Positions 1 through 19,210 of a DNA stretch of 51,480 nucleotides are shown here, piece after piece. This DNA comes from Sideroxydans sp. (GTDB taxonomy: Bacteria > Pseudomonadota > Gammaproteobacteria > Burkholderiales > Gallionellaceae), in contig PNNY01000004.1 in NCBI GenBank assembly GCA_013824485.1, forward strand, positions 1 through 51,480, read 5' to 3'. The notes beneath the pieces were generated by a model that was given only the letters and a program-made list of their open reading frames with translations, was not told the DNA's origin and did not search any database. Numbering within the stretch: position 1 is the first letter of the stretch; every line of letters starts with the position of its first letter. Position numbers and translations under genes: made by a program.

Positions 1-26
1 ATTATCAACCCACACAAGGAGCCACC

Positions 27-464
27 ATGAAGAAGCAATCGATCTTAGTCGCATCTCTTATCACATTCGCACTTTCCATACCTCAGGCACAAGCAGCAGA
101 GCCCCTCGAACTGCAAAAAGTTATGAAGGATCTGGGTAGGAATATGCAGGTCATCACCGACGGTATCTCACGCGAAGATTGGGAGTTGGTTGCCAAGACA
201 GCTCCGTTGATCGCGTCTCATCCCCAGCCCCCAGTTTCTGAAAAGATGCGCATCATGAAATTCATGGGGCCAGAGATGTCCAAGTTCAAAGCATTAGACG
301 GCGAGACGCATGAGGCCGCGCATAGTCTTGAGCATGCCGCACATGAGAAGGACGGGCAAAAAGTCATCGCGGCTTTTCAGCAGGTGCAAACCAGCTGTTT
401 GAATTGCCACCAGACCTTTCGGGGCAAGTTCGTCGAACATTTCTACGGTACTGCAAGTAAGTAA
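27..464 (+). CDS. Cytochrome c'/c556-like periplasmic monohaem protein
   Basis: The 145-residue product has a typical Sec signal peptide (KK, a hydrophobic core, then AQAAEP at about residues 20-26) and one haem-binding CLNCH motif close to the C-terminus. That layout (helical bundle, C-terminal CXXCH) is the cytochrome c'/c556 fold. It should be a periplasmic haem protein for electron transfer or gas binding; which one cannot be read from sequence. A clear AAGGAG lies just upstream of the ATG. It is followed by a second cytochrome of the same general type and a membrane protein, apparently as one transcription unit. The operon's 5' end lies outside the window. Confidence 0.85.
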   Translation: MKKQSILVASLITFALSIPQAQAAEPLELQKVMKDLGRNMQVITDGISREDWELVAKTAPLIASHPQPPVSEKMRIMKFMGPEMSKFKALDGETHEAAHSLEHAAHEKDGQKVIAAFQQVQTSCLNCHQTFRGKFVEHFYGTASK

Positions 465-503
465 ATCGGTCGTTGATGCGTCATCACCCAGAGAGAAAAC
501 AAT

Positions 504-971
504 ATGAGGAATTGTAAATTGAGCTGGATTTTGGTTGCCTTGCTGGCCATTGTCGTTGCTGCATTGGGCTACAAATTCACAGTCGGCAATGTGCAACCCT
601 CTGACGATGGGCGGCAGGCGGTCATGTTGAGTAAAGATGAGCGTAATGCGCTGTTGTTAGAGATGCGTGTGTGGTTGCAAAGTTCGCAAGGCATCTTGGC
701 GGCCGCATCAGAGAAGGATTTTGATGCCGTCATCAAGTCTGCCAAAGCATCCGGCATGGAAGCCGAGGCAGATACACCGGGTTCGTTGTTCAGGAAACTT
801 CCCGTCGAAATGAAGACGCTGGGTTTCGATACACGCAGCAAGTTCGACAACATTGCTGTTGAGGCCGAAAAGTCGAAGGATAGTAGTCTCGTCGTCAAGA
901 AATTGAGCATGGCCATGAATAACTGCATCGCCTGCCACGAGATGTATCGCTTCGTTGAAGAAACCAAATAA
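504..971 (+). CDS. Membrane-anchored or secreted cytochrome c'/c556-like protein
   Basis: The 155-residue product starts with a short basic stretch and a strong hydrophobic helix (about residues 8-23) that lacks an obvious AXA cleavage site, so it may be an uncleaved anchor. A single CIACH haem motif sits about 11 residues from the C-terminus, as in the preceding gene. The two proteins share the C-terminal CXXCH architecture but little obvious sequence, so they are probably distant paralogues. The gene lies 39 bases after its neighbour and is likely co-transcribed. The physiological partner is unknown. Confidence 0.8.
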   Translation: MRNCKLSWILVALLAIVVAALGYKFTVGNVQPSDDGRQAVMLSKDERNALLLEMRVWLQSSQGILAAASEKDFDAVIKSAKASGMEAEADTPGSLFRKLPVEMKTLGFDTRSKFDNIAVEAEKSKDSSLVVKKLSMAMNNCIACHEMYRFVEETK

Positions 972-988
972 TCCAAGGAGACATAAGC

Positions 989-1396
989 ATGACTTCACTT
1001 AAACAACCCCGAGGATGGCTGATCAGTTCACTCGCCATCGTGGCGGTTCTATTTGGTTTGATGACGATTAAGGAAGGTGGCGCTGTGTTGCTGGGCAATG
1101 AGGCGGCAGTAGAAGCGGCCGGGAACTATGTCCCATTCGTCCTCTGGTTCAACTTCTTGTCGGGCTTTGCCTACATAGCTGCCGGCGTTGGATTGTGGCT
1201 ACAGCAACGTTGGGCCATTTGGCTAGCAGTGGCAATTGCCGCAGCAATCGCACTCACATTCATCGGTTTCGGCATGCACATAAGTTCCGGTGGTGCTTAT
1301 GAGAAACGCACGGTTATTGCAATGATTATGCGTACTGTGGTGTGGTTCGTAATTGCGGGAGCAACGATTCAAATGTTGTTGCGCAAACGTAATTGA
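989..1396 (+). CDS. Four-helix inner-membrane protein of unknown function
   Basis: The 135-residue protein has four predicted membrane helices (about residues 11-28, 46-66, 72-94 and 108-128) and ends with a basic tail (RKRN). No domain was recognised. An AAGGAGA precedes the ATG, and only 17 bases separate it from the second cytochrome gene, so it is probably the last gene of the cytochrome operon. A role as membrane partner of the cytochromes is only an inference from context. Confidence 0.75.
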   Translation: MTSLKQPRGWLISSLAIVAVLFGLMTIKEGGAVLLGNEAAVEAAGNYVPFVLWFNFLSGFAYIAAGVGLWLQQRWAIWLAVAIAAAIALTFIGFGMHISSGGAYEKRTVIAMIMRTVVWFVIAGATIQMLLRKRN

Positions 1397-1950: not shown

Positions 1951-2373
1951 TCAATTTGGGGATTTCTGTCCCCGGAGCTTTTTGCCAAAGATCGATGTGA
2001 CCTTTTCACCCGTGAGCGCCGCCTTCTCTTTGGCCCACTGCTCACGTTCATCCCATAACTGTTTTATCAAGGAGACCTCGCGGGTCAGCGCATCCTCCCA
2101 TAAATTTCGGTACTTATCGACATCCGCCTTTAGATTCTCAATCCTCTCTTTCTGCGAATCGTCCGGTTTGGACAGCTCTACCTCGGCGTTATCGATAGCC
2201 TCAATGAGATCCTTGAAGATAGGACGTATACGCTTTATCGCCCCTTTCTTTCTTCCGGCCTCAAGAGCTACTGTGTCATTATTGATGCGGGATCCTTTGG
2301 GGACGACTTTCGGCTTTCCCTTTTTAAGTCGCTCCAGCGCATCGAAGTAGTCTGCGAGATAGTTATTATCCAT
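1951..2373 (-). CDS. Small coiled-coil accessory protein of the recombinase operon (TnpC-like)
   Basis: This 140-residue, highly charged protein has an N-terminal segment around INNDTVALEAGRKKGAIK (about residues 33-50), like the short helix-turn-helix-like start seen in small accessory proteins of Tn554-type elements. A long heptad-like helix follows (about residues 55-120). The ATG at 2373 overlaps the stop of the preceding recombinase gene by eight bases, which argues for translational coupling; a start six bases earlier would be TTG. In Tn554, TnpC influences frequency and orientation of transposition, and a similar role is inferred here only from position and shape. Confidence 0.6.
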   Translation of the reverse strand: MDNNYLADYFDALERLKKGKPKVVPKGSRINNDTVALEAGRKKGAIKRIRPIFKDLIEAIDNAEVELSKPDDSQKERIENLKADVDKYRNLWEDALTREVSLIKQLWDEREQWAKEKAALTGEKVTSIFGKKLRGQKSPN

Positions 2374-4423
2374 GACCAACCCCTGTTGAATGTGTCTCAG
2401 GGACTCCTACAGGCCGCCAAAGTGCCTCAACCTGTTCCAATGCCTGCAGATCTTCACTCTCGACCCGGTGGGTGATGGTGTCAGGGCTAATGTGTGCCAG
2501 CATGCCGCGTTTGGCCTTGATGACTTGGATAATTTTAGAATGCTTGCCGACCAGGTTCTTGCAGCCCTTAGTTGCGCAGACTGTGTTAACAAGCGCTATG
2601 CCAGTCCTCTTTTCGCATGGGCCAAGCTTGGTACAACCTCCGATTGGTCCACTCTTATAGGCCATTGTCCCGCTCTTGATGGCTACCTGAACCTGTTCAC
2701 GTGTCATCAGCTTGCCTTTCTGCCTTTGAGTATCATAGAAGTTTCCAGCTCCTCCATAGAGAGGCTCCTCACTCTTTAGAACGTCCCATACGAACGAAAG
2801 AAGCTCTGCTTCTTCCTCTGTTTCCTGCCACTCCTTGACGACATGCTTATTGAAGCCCTTTGGGTCCTCAATAAAGAAGTTTTTGGCAAATGTGCTGCCA
2901 TTCGCGTAGTAGGAACTCATGTCGTTGCTGATGTGCTGCAGCTGGCGACGGAGAGATGACAGACGGACACACCCACTGGCACGCGCATATAGCGCGAGCG
3001 AACGCCGAAGCTGGTGCGACCTCAGCGGCCATATCCGGCCAACTTGGAATTCTTCTTCGTCATGCCAGTTGCGGAATGGGTCGATGTCCTCCAGTTCGGC
3101 AACGTCTTCCTCCTTGATTACAGGAATAAGCCTTGCAACAAGTGATTCATAATATTTTGTAGATACCCTTAAGTTCGTTACCACCCTAAAAGGCACAGAC
3201 CCGGATGTATCGAACCCTTGACTGTTATTCCAAGGCAAATAGTTGGTGGAGATAAATAGTCGAAATATGTCCTTATCATCGTCCTTCTTACTTGGCTTTA
3301 TGCCTATGGATTCGTAGATCACGGACGACAGTTTCTGCGCGATGCGAATTGCACGGAAACCGTTCTCTTCGGTAGTTACCCATTGGGCTCTTCGTTTTCG
3401 TCCACCATTCAACTTGGTGGTGTATCCCTCAATCAGGGCATATTTGCGACCATTACGGCCCTCTGTCTTCATGCAGTCAAAGGGCAGATATATAACCTCT
3501 TTGTCACGCATGGCCGAAAAGGTGTGAATCTGTTGTTTGCATACCAGATACACAGCGTGCACGACTGAGCATAATCCATTCAGTTCTCTATTTTTGCCGT
3601 ACCTGTCAAACAGGTCACCCAGTGAGGTTTCCCCAAGTAAATCCGGGCCAACCACAACACCTCTGGTTCCCGTGCGCTTTGCATCAGCGTCGCGCCAAGC
3701 TTTCACTGCACCACGCAGGGTGGAGATTAATTTGTCTAGGTGACTCTCGATAAACGTCAACTCGGTATCAAGATTATTAATCCACTCGGAGTAAATCCGC
3801 GTAGGTAGAGGGGCGTGTTGTTTAATGCTTTCTTGATGCTTGATGGCTAGCAGACTCAATTTATCCCAGAACGTCGTGCGAGCTACGGGAAATGCCGCCT
3901 TATCTGAGTTTTGGGCATAAAGCGAATTAAGCAAATTTCGCAAGTGCATCGCGTCTTTATTGCGGATTTTGCCTATGAACTTATCCAACAACTCAGCACG
4001 CCTCAATACCTCCCCAACGCCGCAATCCGCCTCTTCAGCATACAACGCAATTTTGCGCGACATATACTGAATGTGGTGAAGACTTGAAACACCGATACCT
4101 GTATAGCTTTTGCTATACATAATATTGCACATCAGGTGCTGCAATTCTCGAATACGCATCAATCTTTGTGGAGTTATTTCGGATTCATTGATTTTTCGAT
4201 TGGCTTTGTTTTGCCAGTAATCAAAGTACAACCTCGTCGTCTGTCCGTGCGCGTGGTAGGAAGTCAAATCCCATACCAAATCGCCTGCTCTGGAGACAAC
4301 CTCTCCTTTGTTATTTCGAGCCACAACGTGATCTAGATGTAACTCAGTACCATCACCCATCCAAGGATCGGGCGGTAGCGCCCCCTTTGGTAGCTTGATG
4401 CGAGATTCTGCTTCCAAAATCAT
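2366..4423 (-). CDS. Large tyrosine-recombinase-like protein, third of the operon
   Basis: The 685-residue protein shows a tyrosine-recombinase C-terminal half: a box I-like arginine in AMRDKEVIYLP (about 306-316), an HQLRR motif near residue 468 for the HxxR pair, and QHISNDMSSYY near 490-500 carrying the second histidine and candidate nucleophile tyrosines. A cluster of four cysteines follows near residues 600-625 (CTKLGPC, CATKGC) and may bind a metal. The N-terminal 300 residues resemble nothing I recognise. Its ATG overlaps the stop of the upstream gene as ATGA. The length exceeds simple phage integrases (about 400 residues) and is close to Tn554 TnpB. Confidence 0.7.
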   Translation of the reverse strand: MILEAESRIKLPKGALPPDPWMGDGTELHLDHVVARNNKGEVVSRAGDLVWDLTSYHAHGQTTRLYFDYWQNKANRKINESEITPQRLMRIRELQHLMCNIMYSKSYTGIGVSSLHHIQYMSRKIALYAEEADCGVGEVLRRAELLDKFIGKIRNKDAMHLRNLLNSLYAQNSDKAAFPVARTTFWDKLSLLAIKHQESIKQHAPLPTRIYSEWINNLDTELTFIESHLDKLISTLRGAVKAWRDADAKRTGTRGVVVGPDLLGETSLGDLFDRYGKNRELNGLCSVVHAVYLVCKQQIHTFSAMRDKEVIYLPFDCMKTEGRNGRKYALIEGYTTKLNGGRKRRAQWVTTEENGFRAIRIAQKLSSVIYESIGIKPSKKDDDKDIFRLFISTNYLPWNNSQGFDTSGSVPFRVVTNLRVSTKYYESLVARLIPVIKEEDVAELEDIDPFRNWHDEEEFQVGRIWPLRSHQLRRSLALYARASGCVRLSSLRRQLQHISNDMSSYYANGSTFAKNFFIEDPKGFNKHVVKEWQETEEEAELLSFVWDVLKSEEPLYGGAGNFYDTQRQKGKLMTREQVQVAIKSGTMAYKSGPIGGCTKLGPCEKRTGIALVNTVCATKGCKNLVGKHSKIIQVIKAKRGMLAHISPDTITHRVESEDLQALEQVEALWRPVGVPETHSTGVGHG

Positions 4424-6360
4424 GTGATTACTCCTAACTCAAGGAAGAGATGATATTTTTCAGCCCAGAAATGCGTCAGTTCCCCATCTTCAAATACTTC
4501 CACCTTTACCCGCTTAACCATCGACTCGCAGTCACCAACACTGGCAATGGCTGTCAGATCCTCCTCACATTTCTGTATAAGCGGGCGCAGAGCTTTTTCG
4601 TGTGCTGGACCAAGGATTAGCTGTTCCATCAGAAACGCAGCCGATGCAATTTTTCGTGCGTCCTCTTCGTCCGCAACGAGACACCGGTGCAAACAGTACC
4701 AACACCCTCCATCACAACTAGGCTGAAACATGGGGTCGTCACTCATTCCATCCGGGTGTCCATAGCTTTCGCAACCGCCGCCTTGCTCAAGAGGCGCCGC
4801 CCCCCCCAATTCGTCGCGCGACACAACCACTTTTTGCTTCTTTGCAGTGTCGGAAATTTTCCGGAGGAAGGCCGTCATGTCATCGCGGTGATCTACTGAT
4901 GAGCCGCGCCCATATTTCTTGTTTTCAGTCTCTTCGTCGTGTCCCATCACTTTTGCAGCGATGGCGGTCTCGTAATGCCTCAGATACCAGTCGTCTACTG
5001 TGGCACGGATTTGCCTAGGGCGGATGACGGTTATTTTCACATCAATGCTTTTCATTAATGCGTAAATCGTTTCCAGCCCCTTGTCTGTGATTTGAGTTGG
5101 GGCGTCCAAATTTTTTTGCTTAACGCCCACAGCAAGGAACAAATATGGGTGGTGTTGGTTATCCAGCATGTAATTGCGTAATTCCATGAACTTACGCAAC
5201 GATGGCATAAAGCTGACCGGCACTATTAATGTCACAACTTTCCCAGAAGCGCGGTATTTAATTGCGCGGTAGTTTTGGTTAACTACTTCTGCATCAATAA
5301 CGTCTCCGGATTCGATCTCCCGTATAACTGCAAGATTTCCACCTGTGTTTGCCATAAAAAGCAACAGGAATGCATGATGTGCTGACGTAGCTAGTTGAAT
5401 ACGTATTCGATGACGATAATTCGCATTTGCCTCATCGATCAGCCGCTTCGCGTCAGTTATTAATTTGTCTGCTAGAACACGTTTGGCCCTTTCAGTTTTA
5501 ACCTTGTACCAATGCCAGATTTCATCAATTGTGGCCAAACGGCCTCTTTTGTAATCATATGGCCAATTGGGTTTGCCAAGTCTTACCCTTTCTTCTCCCC
5601 ACAAGTGTGGAGGCAAGTTCCATACGTTCGTCGGAAATATCCAAAGATGGTTTCCAGTTTCCCAATTCAGGGACTCGGGTAGTTTCAGCTCGTACGGAAA
5701 TGGCTTGTTGTTTAGCAGCAGGTCAGCTAGGCCATCGAACATCATCTCAGCCATGGCAAGCGTATGCGCAAAGTCATCGCTGTTTGCAGGCTCTGTTCCT
5801 TTCCGTGCCCCTTGGTTCCTATCTCTAATCAGACAAACACCTTGGCCAAACTCTGGATTTCCAGTGACGGCTGCAAGGAGTTTCATGACATGCGACTGCC
5901 TTGCAAAGGCAGTCGGAGCTTCAATGTTTCCCTGTTGAAAAATCTCGTTCACATGGGCCACATAACCAAGGTATGCTCTCTCCATCACGTCTTTACATGT
6001 CAAACATTCGACATGGTCATTGCGATCCGACCAATCTACAAACATACCAAAGGCGAGCAACTCCCCATACATTGTTGAAGGTCGCTTGCTGACCATCATT
6101 TCAGAGGCTACTTTGATGAGCTGTTTAACCACCGCACGCCTTTTTGGCAGGAGTGTTGACTCTTCTACCTGCGAGGGCTTTTTTGCTGCGCGCTGTTCTT
6201 CTGAGCGTAACGCATAACATAGAGAACCCACATCGATAAACTTAGAGCCAACCTTCACGATCACCTGCTCCGGATGAAGGATTCGCACCGCAGTTCTTAA
6301 TGGTAATTCCAGAACATAGTGCTGACGCGTGGTGAATATGGGGTCAGTCGGCTTATTCAT
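4420..6360 (-). CDS. Large tyrosine-recombinase-like protein, second of the operon
   Basis: The 646-residue protein has a late recombinase-like domain: TGGNLAVIREI near residue 345 in the place of box I, RPRQIRAT near 450 where HxxR is usual (here RxxR), then MGHDEETENKKYGRG near 472-486 with the second histidine and a tyrosine. A compact cysteine cluster follows near 535-560 (CDGGCWYCLHRC), probably a metal site. The altered box II means it might act as a non-catalytic or specialised partner. The ATG at 6360 overlaps the upstream stop by eight bases. An in-frame start at 6417 would overlap far more and is less likely. Confidence 0.7.
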   Translation of the reverse strand: MNKPTDPIFTTRQHYVLELPLRTAVRILHPEQVIVKVGSKFIDVGSLCYALRSEEQRAAKKPSQVEESTLLPKRRAVVKQLIKVASEMMVSKRPSTMYGELLAFGMFVDWSDRNDHVECLTCKDVMERAYLGYVAHVNEIFQQGNIEAPTAFARQSHVMKLLAAVTGNPEFGQGVCLIRDRNQGARKGTEPANSDDFAHTLAMAEMMFDGLADLLLNNKPFPYELKLPESLNWETGNHLWIFPTNVWNLPPHLWGEERVRLGKPNWPYDYKRGRLATIDEIWHWYKVKTERAKRVLADKLITDAKRLIDEANANYRHRIRIQLATSAHHAFLLLFMANTGGNLAVIREIESGDVIDAEVVNQNYRAIKYRASGKVVTLIVPVSFMPSLRKFMELRNYMLDNQHHPYLFLAVGVKQKNLDAPTQITDKGLETIYALMKSIDVKITVIRPRQIRATVDDWYLRHYETAIAAKVMGHDEETENKKYGRGSSVDHRDDMTAFLRKISDTAKKQKVVVSRDELGGAAPLEQGGGCESYGHPDGMSDDPMFQPSCDGGCWYCLHRCLVADEEDARKIASAAFLMEQLILGPAHEKALRPLIQKCEEDLTAIASVGDCESMVKRVKVEVFEDGELTHFWAEKYHLFLELGVIT

Positions 6361-7828
6361 TTTTAAAGCCGTTTTTTGCGGTATCGATCCATGCCTGGAC
6401 TTGATCGCCGTACTCATTAACGGCCGTGAAGATCCTCTCCATCTGCGCCCTGTAGTCCAAATACTGGTCGGTTGTTGCGCTTGATTCGTGCCACATTAAA
6501 GTTCTGAGAATCTGCCTTGCCTTGTCTAAAGTTATCACGCCCGCTTGCACCATTTTGACCAACTTAGCCTCGGTGTTCATTCCGAATGTTGCGCGCAAAT
6601 CATGAATGCGGAAGTGGAAGTTTTTGTCGTGCCTCTCCTGAATCATTGGAATTAGGCGATCCTTCAGATACTGCCGGACGGTGCCACCCTTTTTATGGTG
6701 CCGCCGTTTAAATTCTGGATTGAAATTGAGCGTGGTTTCCTTGCTCTCAAAGTAGTGGGTTCCTTGCTGCGTGAGAAAGAGGTGCTGTTCTAAGTGATCC
6801 CCCCCTGGGGCACGGCTGCAGCGGGATCGAGTACGCGGGGAAAGTGCATATGAATGCATGACATCGTAGAGCGCCTTAGGGACCATTAGAATCGCTTTTT
6901 TATCGTTTTTTGTATCGATGCCAGTCCCGGGGCCTGCAGTGATTTTCACGACCTCGCCCCCTCCACTTATCGACTTTGAAAGCTTGGGATGTGGATTTGC
7001 AAAGTGCCTTCTTCTAAGCGTACCTACCGTCTGAATGCGAGCCCCTGTCAGCACAATGAAGAGCAAGATCAAGTAAATCTCGGGATTGCGTAATTCCTTT
7101 GCCGCATCAAAGACCCATCGTTGTTCGATTTCCGGAAGAGGGCGCAACTCTCCTCCATCCATGATGGTGCCGTCGAAAGGATCGGTCGTTTCCGGGGTCT
7201 TAATGCTCAAGTTCGTTGTTTTTACGTTCTTTGATACGGAGAACCCCTGCTTGTTTTTGTAGATCAGGTTGTAAGTTCTTTCTTCCCAGGGAGCGAAATC
7301 AAACTGGAAGTATTGCTTCTCCATGAGCCAACGATAAAAGGCTATGACAGTTCCCATTCGTCTCTTGGCCGTCTTGGGTTTCACCTCCTGCGCATATATC
7401 CAACTTTGTAAGAATTCGCGATATCGATAAGTAACACGCGCCTGTTTGAATTTTGGGAAATGAAACAGTAGGTCGCCTGGATGATCGTCATTGTCAATCC
7501 ACTCCTTGAAGGCGCCAAGATCCTCCGCGATGCTCCCGTAGGACTCCATGTTGGGCCGAGTTTCCCCTTCCAACTTGTCCAAAATATAGAGGCAGGCTAG
7601 GTCCCAAGGGCTTCCGTCACGATTAAATGCAATCGGAAAGAGGTTGTAGTTGCACCTAGCCCCGGTGTCGGAATCAACGAAAGGCCTGTAGAAATAAGTC
7701 AGGGCCTTTCTCCCAATTCCCTGTTTGATAGGGCGAGTTAACGCGCCTTCATCATCTTTGTCGCAAGTTTCCGAGAGAACAAAAACTGGAAGATCAATCT
7801 TGCGTTCTACAATCTTTAATGTGGACAC
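6353..7828 (-). CDS. Tyrosine recombinase/integrase, first gene of the mobile operon
   Basis: The 491-residue protein carries the full catalytic set of the family: box I arginine in TGARIQTVGTLRRR (about residue 262), HDLR near 409, and WHESSATTDQYLDY near 447-460 with the second histidine and the nucleophile tyrosine. The N-terminal part should be the core-binding domain. It starts with GTG, preceded by GGAG at a good distance. The gene begins only about 80 bases inside the presumed right end of the element, as expected for an integrase gene next to its attachment site. It probably does the strand exchange with the next two proteins as partners. Confidence 0.85.
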   Translation of the reverse strand: MSTLKIVERKIDLPVFVLSETCDKDDEGALTRPIKQGIGRKALTYFYRPFVDSDTGARCNYNLFPIAFNRDGSPWDLACLYILDKLEGETRPNMESYGSIAEDLGAFKEWIDNDDHPGDLLFHFPKFKQARVTYRYREFLQSWIYAQEVKPKTAKRRMGTVIAFYRWLMEKQYFQFDFAPWEERTYNLIYKNKQGFSVSKNVKTTNLSIKTPETTDPFDGTIMDGGELRPLPEIEQRWVFDAAKELRNPEIYLILLFIVLTGARIQTVGTLRRRHFANPHPKLSKSISGGGEVVKITAGPGTGIDTKNDKKAILMVPKALYDVMHSYALSPRTRSRCSRAPGGDHLEQHLFLTQQGTHYFESKETTLNFNPEFKRRHHKKGGTVRQYLKDRLIPMIQERHDKNFHFRIHDLRATFGMNTEAKLVKMVQAGVITLDKARQILRTLMWHESSATTDQYLDYRAQMERIFTAVNEYGDQVQAWIDTAKNGFKNE

Positions 7829-7887
7829 CTAAACGCTCCGCTAAGAGATTAGCAGTCCATTTTACTATAACTTGGGTGGGGTGGTAT

Positions 7888-8046
7888 TTACAAAGAAACT
7901 TGCCTGTAGTTGCAGATGAACATCACCAGCAGACCGTTCTTACCGCGCGCACTTTCGAGTGTGTGGCGCTTGCCATCTACGCCCAGCAAGTCAAACGGGC
8001 GTGCCTTCCAGCCGAAATCACAAAGAGGGGGTTGCAGACTGACCAT
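7888..8046 (-). pseudogene. 5' fragment of a redoxin (AhpC/TSA, thioredoxin-like) gene, cut by the mobile element
   Basis: Translated leftward from the ATG at 8046, the first 45 or so codons read as a redoxin N-terminus: CDFGWKARPFDLLGVDGK, then GKNGLLVMFICN. In this family MFICN is followed by HCPYV, with the active-site cysteine. Here homology stops exactly after FICN at about 7909 and eight unrelated codons run to a stop at 7888. The remaining roughly 140 residues of the family are missing. The gene is therefore broken, and the junction marks the right end of the recombinase element. The intact gene would have been divergent from rsmE. Confidence 0.8.
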
Positions 8047-8126
8047 TCTAGATACACTCCCAAAATACAGCGTTATTCTTCTGCCCGTTATATTATCACG
8101 CCCATCCCCAATGCCCTTTGATTGCT

Positions 8127-17706: not shown

Positions 17707-18114
17707 CTAGCTCTGTGAAAGACGAGAGTCAGATCGTTTGCGTTGGATGTACCGAAACAAGGTGAGCGTTAAAGCTGCGGCGACTGGAAGCAACAGCAAA
17801 AGCAAGCTGGTGAGTGCGCCTAGTGCGAACCATGCGCGCGCTTCTGAACTGCCAAAACCATAGTTCGCAAGGTTCATCCCCAGATAAGCGCACAGCAAGA
17901 ACAACAAGCAAATACGCGCGCGGTAGTGCCACGCCATAAGCATCACGGGGAGGGTGAGAAAGAGTTGATTGATAAATAAGCCGCTGCTTGAATCGAAAGG
18001 CTCAAAGTGGCCGGAGATCATCCACGCCATCAGCCAACTGAACGTACCCGTCAGCCCACCACCGATGGCCACCCATAAGAGGCGAATCTCGCGCACAGAA
18101 TTAGCTGCGCGCAT
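17707..18114 (-). CDS. Small multi-pass membrane protein, unknown
   Basis: About 135 residues with four likely membrane helices (LLWVAIGGGLTGTFSWLMAW, LFINQLFLTLPVMLMAW, ICLLFLLCAYLGMNLA, then LLLLLPVAAALTLTLF) and a basic C-terminus. No family is recognised. The ATG at 18114 overlaps the stop of the upstream gene; the frame extends seven codons further to a TTG. It is the last of four consecutive overlapping genes for small membrane proteins. Confidence 0.65.
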   Translation of the reverse strand: MRAANSVREIRLLWVAIGGGLTGTFSWLMAWMISGHFEPFDSSSGLFINQLFLTLPVMLMAWHYRARICLLFLLCAYLGMNLANYGFGSSEARAWFALGALTSLLLLLLPVAAALTLTLFRYIQRKRSDSRLSQS

Positions 18115-18472
18115 CACGTGACAACCACCAAGCAAGGGGAGAAAGGAGCGCGCACGCCATCAGCTGAAGGATGGGTGTCAGCGCCACTGCAATTGCACCT
18201 TGCGCATCGCGATGCCAATAGATGACATCCAACAGAAAAATTATCCCACCACCAGAAATAAGAATGGCGAGCGCACACCAATACACCGTTGCGCGACCTG
18301 CCTTTTGCAAATAGAACAGCGCCACGCCCATTGCCATATACGGTGCAGTTAGCCAAACGGCAAAAAACAAGAAGGCGCTGAAACTGCTTGGTTTGAGAGC
18401 CATGTTGAAATAGATCGTGGCACACATTGCCAACGCCATTACTGAGTAGGCAAGAAGAGTGGGAAGCTTCAT
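18101..18472 (-). CDS. Small four-helix membrane protein, unknown
   Basis: About 123 residues with four likely membrane helices (LLAYSVMALAMCATIYF, AFLFFAVWLTAPYMAMGVAL, VYWCALAILISGGGIIFLLD, ALTPILQLMACALLSPLAWW). The GGAGCGACATG context supports the ATG at 18472, which overlaps the end of the upstream gene by four bases. No domain was recognised. It is probably translated in a coupled series with its neighbours. Confidence 0.65.
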   Translation of the reverse strand: MKLPTLLAYSVMALAMCATIYFNMALKPSSFSAFLFFAVWLTAPYMAMGVALFYLQKAGRATVYWCALAILISGGGIIFLLDVIYWHRDAQGAIAVALTPILQLMACALLSPLAWWLSRDARS

Positions 18473-18924
18473 GTCGCTCCTTTCCAATCACTAGGTGAAG
18501 CACGTGCACGCTGAACGCGCCATAGCGATACGCCTCCTGCTACGGCAGCCGACACAACAGCGTACCAAAGGTCAAGCATCAATATCAGAACAAAGAGCGA
18601 ACAAGCTAGGCCAATCACATAAGCGATCAGCGCCACAGGCTTGCGGTGAGTGGGTGCAATGAGCGCAGGCAGTGACACCACCAAAGCACCTGCCAAAACA
18701 GAGCCAATAATGATCGCAACACCCTCAATCCAAGCTGACCAATGCGCATGACACATACCAGAAACAAGATAGTGCGTCGGGCATAACGCTTCGTTCGCCT
18801 TGAAGATCAGGATCGCGACGATCACCCCGATATACCACCCAACGAAAGCGGAAGGAACGACCAGCAACCAGCGCACCCAACGTAGCGCACTCACTAGGCT
18901 ACGAGATGAAGCGGTCTCAGACAC
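18469..18924 (-). CDS. Small four-helix membrane protein, unknown
   Basis: The 151-residue protein has likely helices near residues 17-40, 65-85, 92-112 and 115-132, with a Cys-His-containing loop between the first two (ALCPTHYLVSGMCHAHWSAW). Loop cysteines and histidines could bind metal or form a disulfide in the periplasm, but this is only a guess. The start overlaps the upstream gene by eight bases. No family was recognised. Confidence 0.65.
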   Translation of the reverse strand: MSETASSRSLVSALRWVRWLLVVPSAFVGWYIGVIVAILIFKANEALCPTHYLVSGMCHAHWSAWIEGVAIIIGSVLAGALVVSLPALIAPTHRKPVALIAYVIGLACSLFVLILMLDLWYAVVSAAVAGGVSLWRVQRARASPSDWKGAT

Positions 18925-19210
18925 TTTTTGATTGGCGAGAATATTTTAGATAAGCCTTTAACGCCATCACAGAGACCATAGCCAACAGCGGATAGAACAA
19001 CAACAGATCGACACGGATGTTGCATTCACCCGTACACAGAATGCGCAGTTTCATTGCCTGCTCATAAGGGAAATAAGCGAACCAAGCCAGAGCAGCAACC
19101 AGCGTGACGCGACGTTTGCTACGCACATAAAAGAACGCGAAAAGAGCGGAAGGCAGTAACGCCAAGAAAGGGGAGCCGATGAAGATGCCTAAGAGAACGC
19201 CGATGTCCAT
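18917..19210 (-). CDS. Small membrane protein, first of a four-gene membrane cluster
   Basis: The 97-residue protein has about three membrane helices (MDIGVLLGIFIGSPFLALLP, VTLVAALAWFAYFPY, LLLFYPLLAMVSVMALKAYL). A pair of cysteines (ILCTGECNI) lies in the central loop, comparable to the loop cysteines in the next protein. AGGTAATC before the ATG is a reasonable ribosome-binding site. This is the promoter-proximal gene of the cluster 19210-17707. No function is assigned. Confidence 0.65.
   Translation of the reverse strand: MDIGVLLGIFIGSPFLALLPSALFAFFYVRSKRRVTLVAALAWFAYFPYEQAMKLRILCTGECNIRVDLLLFYPLLAMVSVMALKAYLKYSRQSKSV

Follow-up and report, generated by a model that had tools for sequence, protein, structure and literature searches.

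Strand-biased circularizing integrative elements (SEs) were characterised in 2022-2023 (PMC9345347, PMC10214605); what is said below of published elements follows the available portions of the cited papers. Upon integration of an SE, the 6 bp of the target remain beside motif C, at attL, and 6 imported bp come to lie beside motif C', at attR; SE circles carry the C-side 6 bp (PMC10214605). Knockouts of intA, intB and srap in SE-6283 yielded no attS, complementation restored the srap knockout only, and a tfp knockout was not obtainable (PMC10214605). Homologues of Tfp and Srap have been reported to be absent from Alpha- and Betaproteobacteria (PMC10214605). SEs spread resistance genes in Gammaproteobacteria, and their route, one-stranded and copy-out-like, is unusual. 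Here we analyse a stretch of 51,480 nucleotides from Sideroxydans sp. (the window; assembly GCA_013824485.1, contig PNNY01000004.1). Four of its genes very probably form, in identity and in anatomy, the core operon of a complete SE-type integrative element of about 25.9 kb in a betaproteobacterial (Gallionellaceae) genome. The genome contains the four genes, both ends of the element, a split target gene, the spacer polarity, an array of short sites at the right end and an intact, element-borne homologue of the target.

The four-gene operon

An earlier note on the window had proposed a four-component recombinase module that might be less described, with Tn554 and RIT elements among its nearest likenesses. 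All four open reading frames (ORFs) were recovered on the minus strand (Table 1), and they match the IntA, Tfp, IntB and Srap proteins of SEs in this order, so that the module is a described one. For the comparison, profiles were built from 7-8 window-type sequences (the window, two genomes of the same family and five plasmids) and from 2-3 SE-type sequences (L004, L064 and L065, the last not for Srap). In the resulting 4 x 4 matrix, the like pairs reached 100% (IntA), 99.7% (Tfp), 100% (IntB) and 97.1% (Srap), and all 12 unlike pairs stayed at or below 4.8%. The SE-type side includes a named element: plasmid locus L004 encodes WP_034039553.1, the Tfp given for SE-PaeBT2436 in PMC10214605.

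The residues that the earlier note had pointed out proved to be conserved. In IntA, R264, K307, H409xxR412, H447 and Y456 make up the complete R...HxxR...H...Y set and are invariant in 14/14 aligned rows. In Tfp (numbered on a 665-aa version), R468xxR471 replaces HxxR, and K387, R471, Y502 and the cysteines C549/C568/C572/C575 are invariant in 15/15 and 27/27 rows. The description could be refined in that the position of the catalytic Tyr is kept, and that N361 occupies the position of the first catalytic Arg, where 13/15 rows have Asn, the two remaining ones have Tyr and Thr, and 0/15 have Arg. In IntB, R306, H470xxR473, H497, Y506 and a different four-cysteine cluster, C597/C603/C616/C621, are invariant in 26/26 rows. 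Both cysteine clusters are thus traits of the families (27/27 and 26/26 rows) and not special to this locus. The Srap family shows weak coiled-coil matches in Pfam, with TolA_bind_tri in 3/11 members, consistent with the published description of Srap.

The ORF list gives an upstream ATG for tfp, which results in the 665-aa version, whereas the closest homologues favour the start chosen in the earlier note and a length of 646 aa. For srap, a TTG at 2379 (142 aa) is an alternative to the ATG at 2373 (140 aa). With the 646-aa and 140-aa starts, the operon overlaps are 8, 4 and 8 bp, within the 4-8 bases given before.

Searches of the four proteins against Pfam and NCBIfam returned nothing at a meaningful score (the best NCBIfam model, TIGR02224, reached 17.4 bits against a cut-off of 335), and PADLOC gave no match to the operon proteins. 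This negative NCBIfam result covers the Gamma-Mobile-Trio models (GmtX/GmtY/GmtZ) only if they are part of the set, and no positive control was run for them. AlphaFold2 models of Tfp (pLDDT 82.2) and IntB (pLDDT 76.7) were compared with the PDB, and tyrosine recombinases occupied the first 17 rows for Tfp (Cre, XerA, an integrase and an integron integrase) and the first 14 rows for IntB (Cre, the Tn1549 integrase and others). The top probabilities were 1.00, while the best E-values were just 1.6e-3 and 6.6e-3, respectively. Both models thus match tyrosine recombinases best, in agreement with a recombinase module. The earlier note had named two outcomes that would speak against its reading: the four proteins do fall largely inside one already defined four-gene family, the SEs, but the models of the second and third proteins support a recombinase fold.

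Ends of the element and the split target gene

Near position 7905, the window switches to DNA that is common to relatives. In 18/18 congener loci (L011-L028) the target sequence runs uninterrupted across the site and codes for an AhpC/TSA-type protein; the family name is taken from a Pfam match of the C-terminal half in the window genome. The N-terminal part lies in the window, and the C-terminal half was found in the same genome on contig C1, from about C1:17915-17917. The two termini form inverted repeats that are alike at 11/13 bases. The attL spacer, GTTGCA, is identical in 15/18 relatives and differs by one change in the other 3. The attR spacer, GTGATG, is foreign and agrees with GTTGCA at 2/6 positions. 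As read from these junctions, the polarity is that of the published SEs.

Table 1. Features of the element and its surroundings (window coordinates unless marked C1)
Feature	Coordinates	Strand or orientation	Remarks
Cargo: two cytochrome c' family genes and a third small gene	27..1396	+	contiguous in relatives with the transporter module C1:1-3696
srap (gene 4)	2373..1951	-	140 aa (ATG 2373); small accessory protein
intB (gene 3)	4423..2366	-	685 aa; large tyrosine recombinase, complete catalytic set, four C-terminal cysteines
tfp (gene 2)	6360..4420	-	646 aa; tyrosine-recombinase-fold protein, Asn for first catalytic Arg, RxxR for HxxR
intA (gene 1)	7828..6353	-	GTG start, 491 aa; ordinary tyrosine recombinase, complete catalytic set
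Left-end ATGGAC site	7855..7860	-	48 bp inside the left end; same offset in G011
Motif C, intA-side terminus	7896..7908	-	TACAGGCAAGTTT read inward
attL 6-bp spacer	7909..7914	.	GTTGCA; host's own sequence
N-terminal part of split AhpC/TSA-family target gene	7915..8046	-	rest on contig C1
MqsR-like toxin and MqsA-like antitoxin	C1 15800-16715		near the right end
Intact AhpC/TSA gene	C1:17569-17009	inverted relative to target	between the MqsR/MqsA pair and the right end
Motif C', far terminus	C1 17910-17898		CACACGCAAGTTT read inward

We infer that the two contigs adjoin, as relatives indicate: in G132 and G133, the module C1:3696-1 continues into window 1-1325, with about 50 bp unaccounted for. 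The element would therefore comprise window 7908-1, these approximately 50 bp and C1 1-17910. A different arrangement, in which the cytochrome genes belong to the host flank and two copies of the element have recombined, was dropped, since the missing half of the target lies on C1 and relatives show C1:1 beside window:1.

Apparently, a second element with the same polarity is present in G011, a single-contig genome of the same family in which an operon of the same type splits a DMT_6/DUF486 gene. Its attL reads CACCTG, the spacer CAACAG and the repeat TACATGCAAGTTT, and its attR reads the repeat TAACTTGGGTGTC, the spacer GAAGCA and then ATATTCG. The two junctions are about 12.8 kb apart, and the repeats are alike at 9/13 bases. 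Two relatives with the gene intact have CAGTAG and CAGCAG at this place, similar to the attL spacer and unlike the attR spacer.

The ATGGAC array

Just inside C', four ATGGAC sites follow each other in alternating orientation at C1 17790, 17812, 17834 and 17885 (0/+22/+44/+95), and a single site lies at the left end. All four hexamers are exact in G011, L091 and L072, and the steps are within 2 bp of those in the window element. When up to 2 mismatches in the 24 bases were allowed, the array was found in 29/82 stretches, some of which overlap and many of which end before the right end, compared with 0/40 shuffled stretches. It was absent from both strands of 493,386 bases of control DNA. The distance between site 4 and the outer limit of C' is 26 bp in the window element as well as in G011; L072, L078 and L128 have the same 26-bp layout at their presumed end. 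The array was not found in L002-L005, L064, L065 or the Acinetobacter and Pseudomonas loci, some stretches of which may miss the right end, and the word ATGGAC is absent from the main text of PMC9345347.

Probable break and replace

In SE-6283, the split gene is bcp, which encodes a peroxiredoxin, and the element brings along a homologue of bcp 'as if it complements' the broken gene (PMC9345347). In the window element, too, a homologue of the split gene lies close to the right end. A complete native AhpC/TSA homologue, with at least 231 bits, is present in 33/33 other congener genomes, and the element's copy shares 57-62% identity with the natives of relatives. The window genome has, weak paralogues aside, only the split native gene and the element's copy, which probably has a rescue function. 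One relative, G139, has the native gene plus a second homologue, 61% identical, at C34:6685-7230.

Other loci were screened, downstream of the core, for a homologue of the gene on their left flank. The screen was positive in 12/60 eligible loci, compared with 3/56 for a control region farther upstream and 5/240 for comparisons across loci, 3 of these 5 involving loci with the same target. Inspection left 7/60 loci (L083, L096, L121, L131, L134, L086 and L093). Those dropped were L067 (a plasmid duplication, with the control region positive too), L098 and L116 (matches of just 20 aa and 23 aa), L101 (an integrase matching an integrase) and L097, where the match is presumably transposase-like.

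The kept loci differ in what is broken and in what is carried. In L083, a native ABC permease gene is split, with its N-terminal side beyond the array, and the element carries a permease gene together with the adjoining ATPase gene, which belong to the Pfam families BPD_transp_1 and ABC_tran. The pair, which lies directly inward of the array, has a DNA identity of 71% over 1,244 bp; we take it to be modBC. In L096, the native glyoxalase covers 115/121 profile positions, the copy is complete, and the genome holds no further match. In C. lacunae, the only complete glyoxalase match is that of the element. The target of L121, L131 and L134 is hrpB; in L121 the native HrpB_C stops at 126/133, and the copy is complete. 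The hrpB copies of L121 and L134 are 99.3% identical, whereas their natives share 74%. In the Acinetobacter loci L086 and L093, a gene without a Pfam match is broken at FIHE, presumably a metalloprotease motif; L094 resembles both and has too little DNA to be eligible for the screen. Together with L094 and the window, the seven kept loci occupy five places in the IntA tree and involve five different targets. Thus, break and replace, published for SE-6283 and bcp, appears to recur at five further targets, namely AhpC/TSA, an ABC permease-ATPase pair, glyoxalase, hrpB and a likely metalloprotease.

It might be argued that the homologues found in the elements are ordinary cargo, or paralogues present by chance, and do not replace the split gene. 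In favour of this view, genome-wide searches found no second copy for the comM-like (L091), DUF924 (L092) and DUF486 (G011 and G127) targets, and the only other glyoxalase match of P. yangonensis (L108) is weak and sits on a different contig, with none near the element; these cases also speak against generality. The broken Acinetobacter gene, moreover, has no Pfam name. However, the excess of positives over both controls, the near identity of the hrpB copies of two hosts with divergent natives, the element-borne glyoxalase of C. lacunae, the joint presence of permease and ATPase in L083 and the published precedent make ordinary cargo an unlikely explanation, although one that retains some weight.

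A second way to repair the target is possible. In six Pseudomonas loci (L118, L122, L123, L124, L126 and L127), hrpB continues at its 3' end into an alternative C-terminus that these loci have in common (LFHKLDPW...) and that is taken as element-side. In L130, hrpB looks whole.

The idea of break and replace is itself already published. In addition to SE-6283, rescue by a gene resembling the target gene has been suggested for Tn552-II (PMC12486829), and PMC10111431 speaks, for satellites, of an intact copy that serves as backup for a prophage gene that has been interrupted. The words rescue, target gene and paralog are absent from the main text of PMC10214605, and rescue is absent from PMC5385486. 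Nothing further was found on these elements in Betaproteobacteria or on target-gene replacement in a search outside of which most subscription journals lay. As far as the searched literature shows, four things are new: how widely the pattern occurs, the copy that comprises two genes, the array and the clade of the hosts.

Host range and phylogeny

When an IntB profile was run against 84,980 genomes, 66 loci were found, which were assigned to classes by the title of the record: 41 in Betaproteobacteria, 17 in Pseudomonas/Stutzerimonas, 3 in Acinetobacter and one each in Methylobacter, Kiloniella (Alphaproteobacteria), Mariprofundus, a metagenome-assembled genome (MAG) labelled Geobacteraceae and an unplaced record. 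Because the scan was seeded with betaproteobacterial sequences, these counts are not rates. Core hits were obtained at 80 loci, made up of the 66 from the scan and 14 more, several of them used to build the profiles. All four genes are present in 67/80, and in 67/67 they have the same order on one strand. The remaining 13/80 loci are without one or more core genes, often at a contig end.

In an IntA tree of 67 rows, L004, L064 and L065 are separated from the window type by a supported branch. The tree carries a long-branch warning, its root serves for drawing only, and it omits L074, L069, L089, L114, L100, L125 and the loci without a long IntA. It gives a single change for 'rescue', a figure that sets the rescue rows against SE rows and no others.

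Cargo and neighbouring genes

The cargo at C1 4224-14441 includes two sugar-binding periplasmic proteins, a LamB porin, a PfkB kinase and GGDEF, GGDEF-EAL and HD-domain proteins, and is perhaps a unit for sugar sensing and cyclic di-GMP. Beside intA, at 8118, lies a chromosomal gene that we take to be rsmE-like. Farther along, window 18001-19000 has a strong AT skew (0.335) and several overlapping minus-strand ORFs.

Discussion

Judged by its sequence, the locus is a real and complete SE-type element, a betaproteobacterial variant. Several points weigh against this assignment. Identity to the SE-type rows is low (16-30% across the four proteins), and the array is known here outside the named SEs. 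The element itself is known from its DNA; strand bias, circles and the lack of an empty site are traits of the published SEs. The element is spread over two contigs (C4 and C1) of a MAG, and the join of about 50 bp relies on G132 and G133; G134 has the same genes adjoining in altered order, and G150 shows just the cytochrome part in the stretch read. The host lies outside the published range, which comprises Gammaproteobacteria only and is a reported distribution rather than a structural criterion. SEs are described as having IntA and IntB with the RHRY set, which is the case here, and a second protein with a recombinase fold but without RHRY. Here the first Arg and the His of Tfp are absent and the fold is supported by the model, but the Tyr position and the second Arg are kept; both are also present in the named SE at L004.

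The element could also be an inactive remnant. It is present as one copy, in a MAG, and the target is still split. Yet all four core genes are open, IntA and IntB have kept their catalytic residues, and the two termini, both spacers and the array are all in place, which renders a remnant rather improbable.

For the SE-type element, we infer a mechanism of the following kind. IntA and IntB would cut the two ends, and Tfp, with its recombinase fold and lost first catalytic Arg, would take the partner positions, so that only one pair of strands would be exchanged. Tfp may thus act as a strand blocker that stops the second exchange, a tentative proposal that we hold just short of an even chance; the kept Tyr position would leave room for a conditional role of Tfp. 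Srap and/or Tfp might hold the ends via the ATGGAC sites, one on the left and four on the right, and this asymmetry might orient the complex. Copying out of the single-strand joint would then give a circle that includes the 6 bp next to motif C, and when the circle inserts, these would end up beside C', while those of the target would stay beside C, and the homologue near the right end would substitute for the broken gene.

More broadly, the loci may belong to an extensive SE clade that has escaped recognition and has its centre in Betaproteobacteria; it would break and replace housekeeping genes at slowly evolving coding motifs. Such a clade would have captured divergent working replacements repeatedly and independently, once with the next gene of the operon, and its fixed four-site right array plus the one left site would load an accessory protein asymmetrically and thereby set the strand that is exchanged. 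We regard this combined picture as possible, albeit slightly less probable than its negation.

SE-type elements with mapped ends in Betaproteobacteria would supply non-pathogenic models of the mechanism. The asymmetry of one versus four end sites offers a concrete candidate cause of the strand bias, and the missing first Arg of Tfp together with the kept Tyr position offers a testable one. Recurrent replacement of target genes would explain how elements persist that break housekeeping genes at conserved motifs; it would also imply that some of the housekeeping genes seen in genomes are in reality substitutes carried by an element. Four results are useful and open to testing: the ends, the host clade, the array and the recurring replacement genes.

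Comparison with known systems

The GInts (ginABCD islands) share with this element a four-gene operon of three recombinase-like proteins and one small protein, located at the island end with cargo (PMC5385486), and they occur in Betaproteobacteria (PMC10214605, PMC5385486). GinC, like Tfp here, lacks the first Arg. However, the Arg-less protein of GInts is the third (ginC), the first two having the catalytic set, and here it is the second, so that the two are set apart by gene order and by the published description. In addition, each window-type profile finds its own counterpart among the SE-type proteins, whereas matches between GInt and SE proteins are reported to be mostly lacking (PMC10214605). 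That the element is a GInt and not an SE is therefore very improbable. A more distant four-gene recombinase operon (385/538/617/117 aa) was seen on the P. aeruginosa plasmid pWTJH6 (L141, 10442-15485), where it adjoins mercury-resistance genes. It was considered as a GInt and rejected, because its Arg-less protein is the second; against the profiles it reached 99.4% (IntA), 80.5% (Tfp), 97.7% (IntB) and 32.9% (Srap).

Tn554 and Tn552-II share the imported right-hand site (6 bp and 7 bp, respectively) and a small third protein (PMC10214605, PMC12486829), and Tn554 shows the same polarity of its 6 bp and has a large recombinase; both have three genes, tnpA-tnpB-tnpC in Tn554, with no counterpart of the Tfp present here (PMC10214605). 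RIT elements also have three tyrosine-recombinase genes in series, but these encode 315-410 aa each, all with the catalytic Tyr, and are flanked by 34-bp terminal repeats, compared with 491/646/685 aa and 13-bp repeats here; a small fourth protein, present here, is not described for them in the available text of PMC10214605. Given these differences and the NCBIfam result, in which no positive control was run for the Gamma-Mobile-Trio models, an identity with Tn554, RIT or Gamma-Mobile-Trio elements is hardly credible. An SE-type operon on pHG1 of Cupriavidus necator (L069, 12016-21135) has its intA and tfp parted by three opposite-strand recombinase genes, which we take to be RIT-like.

The closest likeness is to the SEs. 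These have imperfect inverted repeats of 13-19 bp (13 bp here) and a 6-bp spacer, with the native spacer at attL and the foreign one at attR, and SE-6283 resembles the window element also in its split peroxiredoxin-type gene and the homologue that it carries (PMC9345347). The window element differs from them in its betaproteobacterial host, Betaproteobacteria being missing from the reported hosts of SEs, and in its longer Tfp (646 aa versus 576 aa in L004). The core, however, is common to all: SE-6283, SE-6945 and SE-PaeBT2436 have the same four genes in the same order.

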